Of a stretch of 64,000 bases of DNA, positions 37,507 through 39,570 are shown piece by piece (positions within the stretch are counted from its first letter, which is position 1; the number at the start of each line of letters is the position of its first letter). Origin of the DNA: Sphingobacteriaceae bacterium (GTDB lineage Bacteria > Bacteroidota > Bacteroidia > Sphingobacteriales > Sphingobacteriaceae); assembly GCA_947463785.1 (NCBI GenBank), contig CANHRG010000003.1, positions 124,001 through 188,000 on the forward strand, in the 5' to 3' direction. Below the pieces are notes generated by a model. The model had not been told where the DNA came from, ran no database searches, and worked only from the letters and a program-made list of their open reading frames with translations. A program made the position numbers and the translations under genes.

Positions 37507-38196
37507 TTAGAACGTTAGTTCTTTCTGGAAAAGTTTACCGTATTTCCTTCGATCAAACTTATACAACTTGGCGGCACGGTAAGAAACTCCTTTCTGTTTC
37601 TCGTCTAGCTCTTTTAAAATGCCAAAGTTTAGCATCTTCTTTCTGAAGTTTCGCTTATCGAGCTTTTTATTGAGTATAAGCTCGTACAGCATCTGCAATT
37701 GAGAGAGTGTAAATTTCTCTGGTAATAACTCAAAGGCAATAGGTTGGTAGGTAATTTTCCGTTTGATCTTTTGTAAAGCCTTAGCAAAAATCTGACTATG
37801 GTCAAATGCCAACTCAGGCAAATTAGCTACAGGATGCCAGAAGGCCTTTTTGGCATAATTGGTAACTGGCTTTAGCTCCTTAGTGGCATTTAAGCGCAAA
37901 ATGGCGTAATAGGCCACCGTAATAACCCTTCCTTGTGGGTGTCTGTTTACTTCACCAAACGTATAAAATTGTTCCATGAAGATGTCTTTGAGGCCAGTTA
38001 ACTCGTAAAGAATCCGATTTGCAGCAAAATCAATACTTTCATTCTGCTCAACTAAATATCCGGGCAAAGCTAAACAGTCTTTAAACGGTTCTTCATTACG
38101 TTCAATGAGCAATACCTTGAGTTCCCCTTTGTCGAAACCAAAGATTACGCAGTCAATAGAAAAAACTGAATCAAATTTAGGCAGTAGCGCTTCCAA
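37507..38196 (-). CDS. Nudix-related transcriptional regulator (NrtR/AraR-like), degenerate Nudix box
   Basis: This 229-residue protein has a Nudix fold in residues of about 10-150 (FDKGELKVLLIERNEEPFKD, then LPGYLVEQNESIDFAANRIL). The catalytic REUXEEXGU signature is degraded to NRILYELTGL, so hydrolysis is unlikely. The C-terminal 75 or so residues form a winged-helix-like domain (FTLSQLQMLYELILNKKLDK, GVSYRAAKLYKFD). This architecture is that of NrtR-type repressors, which sense nucleotide sugars or ADP-ribose, and of the arabinose regulator AraR in Bacteroides. The start is TTG at 38196. It is divergent from gapA, with a palindrome and tandem repeat between them; control of gapA is an inference. 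Confidence 0.75.
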   Translation of the reverse strand: MEALLPKFDSVFSIDCVIFGFDKGELKVLLIERNEEPFKDCLALPGYLVEQNESIDFAANRILYELTGLKDIFMEQFYTFGEVNRHPQGRVITVAYYAILRLNATKELKPVTNYAKKAFWHPVANLPELAFDHSQIFAKALQKIKRKITYQPIAFELLPEKFTLSQLQMLYELILNKKLDKRNFRKKMLNFGILKELDEKQKGVSYRAAKLYKFDRRKYGKLFQKELTF

Positions 38197-38285
38197 AGTA
38201 AGCTTAGTTATTTGGTATAAATATAACAGTAAATTAAACTCTTAAAAAGGATTATTGAAAAGTATTTAGGGCTAAAAATACTTAG

Positions 38286-38298
38286 TGTACTTTGTACA
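38286..38298. promoter_or_regulatory. Candidate operator palindrome between the Nudix regulator and gapA
   Basis: TGTACTTTGTACA is a perfect 5-3-5 inverted repeat in the divergent spacer. It is a plausible binding site for the neighbouring regulator or another dimeric factor. The remaining spacer is A/T-rich. Confidence 0.4.
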
Positions 38299-38329
38299 AT
38301 ATTAAAGACAAAAATCATACCTTTACTGC

Positions 38330-38357
38330 ATAGTTTAATGTAGTTTAAATGAACTAT
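38330..38357 (+). promoter_or_regulatory. Candidate operator: tandem TAGTTTAA repeats within an inverted repeat, upstream of gapA
   Basis: TAGTTTAATG (38331-38340) is directly repeated as TAGTTTAAATG (38341-38351). The outer arms ATAGTT (38330-38335) and AACTAT (38352-38357) are inverted. The block overlaps the -33 region of the gapA promoter. Confidence 0.4.
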
Positions 38358-38367
38358 ATTGCTTTTA

Positions 38368-38375
38368 TAAATTTG
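38368..38375 (+). promoter_or_regulatory. -7 promoter element for gapA
   Basis: TAAATTTG matches TAnnTTTG exactly, 16 nt before the ATG at 38392. A TTTA at 38344-38347 sits about 20 nt upstream as a weak -33 element. Confidence 0.55.
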
Positions 38376-38376
38376 A

Positions 38377-39390
<1,014 letters not shown>

Positions 39391-39414: not shown

Positions 39415-39445
39415 AAAAGCCTCTGAGTAACCTCAGAGGCTTTTT
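39415..39445 (+). terminator. Terminator after gapA
   Basis: A 13-bp perfect stem (39415-39427 with 39432-39444, core AAAGCCTCTGAG) has a 4-nt loop and is followed by a T-run. The 197-bp gap holds this, a second hairpin at 39538, and nothing else seen. Confidence 0.9.
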
Positions 39446-39537: not shown

Positions 39538-39570
39538 AAAAAAGGCTCCCGAAATTCGGGAGCCTTTTTA
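39538..39570 (-). terminator. Terminator after the TonB-dependent receptor gene
   Basis: A long inverted repeat with GGCTCCCGAA/TTCGGGAGCC core is flanked by A and T runs on both sides, so it can act on either strand. The nearest gene reading into it is the receptor. Confidence 0.85.

Follow-up and report, generated by a model that had tools for sequence, protein, structure and literature searches.

In Proteobacteria and Firmicutes, regulators that govern glycolysis as a whole at the level of transcription have been described in detail. Cra/FruR of enterobacteria and PckR, GapR and GluR of Alphaproteobacteria belong, like CceR, to the LacI family, and HexR is of the RpiR family (PMC4052901, PMC5507952). 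A search of the open-access literature found no global glycolysis regulator named for Sphingobacteriaceae or Bacteroidetes. The described protein that most resembles the regulator studied here is BtAraR (BT0354; PDB 5bs6, 5dd4, 5ddg, 5deq), a local arabinose regulator in which a Nudix domain is joined to a winged helix. In the BtAraR–DNA crystal the operator strand contains ...GTGTTACTTTTACAC..., the co-crystal operator being GTGT-TACTTTT-ACAC, and residues K179, R180, N181, K184, K204 and R205 define GTGT (PMC4666351). The ADP-ribose-responsive NAD regulator NrtR (PDB 3gz5, 3gz6) has the same fold and domain order. XylR (BT0791) of Bacteroides is a local xylose regulator of the NrtR family that likewise stands in a sugar-gene context (PMC3878776), and is set beside our regulator by description only.

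The window, the whole 64,000-nucleotide stretch of DNA that was analysed, carries at 37507..38196 on the minus strand the gene of a 229-aa Nudix-fold transcription factor of the NrtR/AraR family, listed with a TTG start. It is the only NrtR-type gene in the window's own genome. Its neighbour at 38392..39390 on the plus strand is gapA, encoding type I glyceraldehyde-3-phosphate dehydrogenase (TIGR01534, 1e-138, above cut-off), which is the directly adjacent predicted target. The regulator matches the Pfam families NrtR_WHD (4e-28), AraR_C (1e-15) and NUDIX (1e-9), all above the gathering scores, and so combines the N-terminal Nudix domain and the C-terminal NrtR/AraR winged helix by which the family is defined. 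Its best PDB sequence match is the BtAraR entry 5bs6 (E 8e-54), with 43% identity between the two proteins, and its AlphaFold model (pLDDT 84) has AraR structures as top fold matches, followed by NrtR, over the full length. The Nudix box is broken: REUXEE of the hydrolase signature is replaced by RILYEL and the first Gly of the box by Tyr. The Pfam matches, the PDB match and the model thus agree with the earlier note, which had read this gene as a Nudix fold with a lost catalytic box and an NrtR/AraR winged helix.

In a tree the regulator fell in a clade of its own (support 93-94, with long branches flagged by the tree tool), apart from BtAraR, from araBAD-linked AraR and from NrtR linked to nicotinamide phosphoribosyltransferase. 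Orthology to AraR was rejected on account of this separate clade and of the neighbouring genes, which are pfkA/gapA instead of araBAD. Orthology to the NAD regulator NrtR was rejected because the phosphate-contact positions are E, L and Q and no nad genes adjoin. Finally, the domains (Nudix plus NrtR_WHD/AraR_C) led to the rejection of a Cra/FruR orthologue of the LacI family.

The spacer between regulator and gapA measures 195 bp and has 22% G+C. The palindrome TGTAC-TTT-GTACA (38286..38298, read directly; the exact 13-mer is unique in the genome) is present in it, as are the tandem TAGTTTAATG / TAGTTTAAATG (38331..38351, plus strand) with its TAGTTTAA copies at 38331-38338 and 38341-38348, the inverted pair ATAGTT (38330-38335) and AACTAT (38352-38357), and the string TAAATTTG (38368-38375), all exactly where the earlier note had placed them. 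Such elements were, however, close to what chance would give: inverted repeats with arms of at least 5 bases numbered 5 in the spacer against 5.3 expected, 6-bp inverted pairs 6 against 6.2, and of order-1 Markov spacers 53% contained a 5-3-5 palindrome and 14% contained an 8-mer tandem pair. The case therefore rests on the comparison between genomes, and it is conservation, not the bare pattern, that sets the palindrome above chance. These counts are also what could be said for a purely local explanation, in which the tandem TAGTTTAA and ATAGTT repeats act on gapA or all the motifs arose by chance in AT-rich DNA. Yet the tandem and the ATAGTT pair were absent, by eye, from the same spacer in three genomes of the same genus, whereas the operator described below is kept throughout the family and also stands before genes unlinked to the regulator, which leaves this explanation scarcely credible. 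The tandem repeat was rejected as a second regulatory element for its lack of conservation in the genus, and chance patterning as an account of the palindrome is refuted by the family-wide conservation of the operator.

The palindrome forms the core of a predicted 23-bp operator CTTAGTGTACTTTGTACAATATT at 38281..38303 (centre 38292), of the type CTTAGTGTA-N5-TACA(C)(TAAG). Together with the preceding G it contains the left half-site GTGT, and the right half-site reads ACAA instead of ACAC. When the window's genus was left out of the training of the matrix, 38281-38303 still ranked first among 63,978 window positions with 14.8 bits, the runner-up having 10.0. In Bacteroidota the -7 box is TAnnTTTG. 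A TAnnTTT[G/A] match, TACCTTTA at 38318..38325 on the plus strand, lies +26 from the operator centre and is the likely gapA -7 element, and in four genus members such a match occurs at +26, +27, +28 or +30. The earlier note had chosen TAAATTTG at 38368 and had laid the repeats over its -33 region. That placement was about 50 bp off and was rejected in favour of the 38318 match, which is kept in all four genus members. Because the best-supported -7 box is at 38318, the repeats would lie downstream of the likely gapA start site, in the presumed 5' UTR and outside the conserved system, and it is the operator that covers the -33 region. On the minus strand TATATTTA (38218..38225) may be the -7 element of the regulator gene; inspection by eye of several relatives showed a TAAATATA-like string recurring close to where the regulator gene starts. 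Two hairpin-plus-T-run terminators (39419-39445 and 39540-39570) separate gapA from a convergent TonB-dependent receptor gene, the first of which, GCCTCTGAG-TAA-CCTCAGAGGC-TTTTT on the plus strand by direct reading, is the probable intrinsic gapA terminator.

The locus was followed through named genomes of the Sphingobacteriaceae (Pedobacter, Mucilaginibacter, Daejeonella, Hufsiella and others), in which 80 regulator loci were scanned. The regulator was divergent to pfkA(-kinase)-gapA in 75 of the 80 genomes, the facing genes being pfkA-gapA in 47 loci, pfkA-kinase-gapA in 27, gapA alone in two, pfkA alone in one and none of these in three. The same picture was given by 20 larger regions of relatives, in most of which pfkA, a BadF-type kinase and gapA stand opposite the orthologue. 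In the window's genus gapA is the sole gene left there and is faced directly; the pfkA of the window's genome is a different copy, located elsewhere and 60% identical to the operon-type pfkA. An operator of more than 12 bits was found in the divergent spacer of 74 of the 80 loci and in none of the 80 reversed spacers. Among the six low-scoring loci, three are without facing genes and two have pfkA more than 500 bp off, outside the scanned stretch. The common motif, CTTAGTGTA-N5-TACAC, is followed directly by the pfkA -7 box TATATTCG, which starts 10 bp past the operator centre in 69 of the 80 loci. Exact TTAGTGTA-N5-TACAC occurred 29 times in ten genomes and the reversed pattern not once. The footprinting that the earlier note had proposed as a check therefore divided its motifs: the palindrome is kept wherever the regulator–glycolysis pair is kept, and so withstands the refuting condition that the note had set, but the tandem and ATAGTT repeats are missing in the genus. 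Outside the Sphingobacteriaceae, in genome G038, a homologue (52-56%) also faces pfkA, with a BadF-type kinase further down.

The half-sites and spacing of the predicted operator, GTGTA-N5-TACAC, equal the GTGT-N7-ACAC core of the BtAraR crystal. The residues that would read it are likewise those of AraR, since D178, K179, R180, N181, R183, K184 and R205, which make up the base-reading helix and the wing arginine, were AraR-identical in 29 of 29 orthologues. Only the minor-groove contact K204 is replaced among the residues that define GTGT, being Tyr, Phe or His in the regulator clade. From NrtR, in contrast, the regulator differs in its DNA-reading residues as well as in its phosphate-contact residues. 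On this sequence comparison it is very probable that the Nudix-type regulator binds the palindrome between its gene and gapA.

To see how far the operator extends, the matrix trained on regulator spacers only was applied to the eno, fbp, pyk and pckA promoter regions of as many as 30 genomes. Sites above 12 bits were present in regulator-bearing genomes at 17 of 21 eno, 18 of 22 pyk and 13 of 21 fbp promoters, against 0/5, 1/5 and 0/3 (together 1/13) in genomes in which no regulator was detected; the reversed and the intragenic controls of the eno, pyk and fbp scan gave no sites. For pckA, sites above 10 bits were found in 13 of 15 regulator genomes versus none of six genomes without a close orthologue. 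Pooled, the sites amount to 61/79 versus 1/19 (Fisher p ~7e-9), a value that overstates independence as the genomes are related. In the window's own genome, where sites were located by pattern searches and scored with the spacer-trained matrix, the values were 22.2 bits at a susCDE-type starch locus, 21.7 at eno, 20.5 at gapA, 19.9 at pyk, 18.4 at fbp, 17.8 at gdh, 14.7 at a GlcNAc-kinase-like gene (the PDB relatives of its product are N-acetylglucosamine kinases) and 12.8 at pckA. The GH13 - beta-phosphoglucomutase - GH65 - GH13 operon, part of that starch/maltose locus, bears a site of 16.1 bits, and the own-genome pfkA a weak one of 11.6 bits. The few further matches, inside genes or at unrelated genes, are probably chance. 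In another member of the genus, G003, the gapA and fbp sites are weak and eno has none. Taken across genera, one operator thus stands at pfkA, gapA, eno, pyk, fbp and pckA. The search for the same motif before other sugar genes that the earlier note had recommended was borne out at pfkA, the BadF-type kinase, eno, pyk, fbp, pckA and the starch/maltose locus, and gdh also belongs to the predicted set. Its proposal that the regulator controls GAPDH is in keeping with the predicted gapA site but was drawn too narrowly, the predicted set being global.

It could be argued that the operator is genuine but serves a different transcription factor encoded elsewhere, with the Nudix gene as a bystander. 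Some sites do persist where no regulator was found, as pyk, gapA and pfkA still bear them in G036. However, the sites track the regulator across genomes in the pooled proportions given above, the core and spacing are those of the AraR crystal operator and the contact residues are invariant, so that a bystander role appears highly improbable. The sister genome G014 has a 43% homologue, and therefore another paralogue or an assembly gap may explain the sites of G036. Operators at gapA, pfkA and pyk were observed in these two genomes (L247, L248, L295, L296), the regulator being remote in G014 and not found in G036.

The place of the operator relative to the promoter differs between genes. At pfkA it touches the -7 box (+10 from the centre), at eno the -7 lies at about -31 or +8 from the operator centre and at some pyk promoters at +8. 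These operators touch or directly follow the -7 box, which fits repression. In seven genomes the pckA operator is centred 56-58 bp before a -7 match, and this far upstream position is an activator-type place. The gapA operator of the window fits repression or activation. At fbp the operator is ~15 bp before the start codon and no recognisable -7 box was found nearby. The arrangement suggests that pfkA, eno and pyk are repressed and pckA is activated, a Cra-like logic achieved by a member of the NrtR/AraR family. Repression at every site would not be Cra-like. It would hold if the same regulator acted on the same operator as a plain sugar-induced repressor, without activation of pckA, and both gene sets were derepressed when carbon is abundant. 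The literature presents both AraR and NrtR as repressors (PMC4666351), the majority of the sites lie over or after the -7 box, and catabolic and gluconeogenic genes alike bear the site. The constant pckA spacing in seven genomes is nevertheless difficult to reconcile with promoter occlusion and is in keeping with an activator, and plain repression is considered rather unlikely, albeit the strongest of the competing explanations.

The effector pocket was compared with those of both families. R34, R86 and H131, the triad that holds arabinose in AraR, are invariant in the regulator orthologues. Phe36 of BtAraR is mostly replaced by Glu (26 of 29 orthologues) and Gly48 by Tyr, Asn, Phe or Leu. The SoNrtR residues N43, K76 and R98, which contact the phosphates of ADP-ribose, are not conserved and correspond to E, L and Q. 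The pocket residues would thus favour a sugar over ADP-ribose. This bears on the idea of a canonical NrtR, whose effector would be ADP-ribose or another NAD-derived ligand and would tie glycolysis to the NAD status via GAPDH. The closest NCBIfam model is indeed that of the ADP-ribose-responsive NrtR, with a score below cut-off, and R34 and H131 are common to NrtR. Against this, besides the exchanged phosphate contacts, the neighbours and predicted targets are sugar genes and not nad genes, and G018 has a separate homologue beside a nicotinamide phosphoribosyltransferase-like gene that falls in a different clade. A canonical NrtR is accordingly thought improbable. For a sugar-responsive regulator a free hexose (e.g. 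glucose) is the first guess, because a GlcNAc/hexose-kinase-like gene and maltose-phosphorylase operons are near the sites; such operons are also found beside distant homologues in G014 and G027. The effector is perhaps a free hexose such as glucose.

With good confidence, though from sequence comparison, we consider the palindrome to be the operator of the regulator, and the regulator to act in Sphingobacteriaceae as a sugar-released, Cra/FruR-like global switch between glycolysis and gluconeogenesis. Its dimer would read the GTGTA-N5-TACAC half-sites via the winged helices, as BtAraR does. Without effector it would sit on and block the promoters of pfkA-kinase-gapA, eno, pyk, the starch/maltose genes and gapA of the window, and ~60-70 bp upstream of the pckA start it would probably activate. 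With sugar in ample supply, the Nudix pocket would take up a small effector, for which a free hexose such as glucose is the likeliest candidate, and the DNA would be released. In this explanation we infer the binding itself, whether a given gene is repressed or activated, and the effector. More tentatively, and at slightly less than even confidence, an AraR-like Nudix regulator may have become independently a Cra-type dual switch that senses free hexose and not a glycolytic phosphate, in Sphingobacteriaceae and perhaps in neighbouring families. The global control of gapA, eno, pyk and pckA with its logic of repression and activation, here predicted, is shared with Cra/FruR, PckR, GapR, GluR, HexR and CceR, which are of unrelated families and use other operators, whereas the present regulator is of the NrtR/AraR type and from Bacteroidota. 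Unlike the local regulator AraR, it has a predicted regulon in central metabolism. This speaks for a master switch, not described so far, that governs central sugar metabolism in Bacteroidota. Pedobacter, Mucilaginibacter and their relatives are common polysaccharide degraders, and if the explanation is true, they use a Nudix-type protein for the job of the LacI-type Cra in E. coli. The prediction is a sharp one, with a 23-bp site, named promoters and few candidate effectors.

Several further operators were observed. In the starch/maltose locus (G000:C3:21836-38825, L379), which comprises susC, susD, a SusE/F-like gene, MFS-GH13, GH13, GH65 phosphorylase, beta-phosphoglucomutase and GH13, an operator precedes both divergent ends. 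An operator-like site lies upstream of the glutamate dehydrogenase gene in two genus members (G000:C3:103050, L126; and L100 of G001), hinting at a coupling of carbon and nitrogen. In G010 (L137) an exact operator precedes an adhE-like alcohol/aldehyde dehydrogenase gene by 95 bp; this gene lies beside pyruvate formate-lyase activation genes. Finally, in G014 and G027 (L246, L254) a distant regulator homologue faces a BadF-type kinase - beta-phosphoglucomutase - GH65 operon that carries a CTTATTGTA-N5-TACAATAAG-like site, which suggests that a sister regulator uses a somewhat altered operator.
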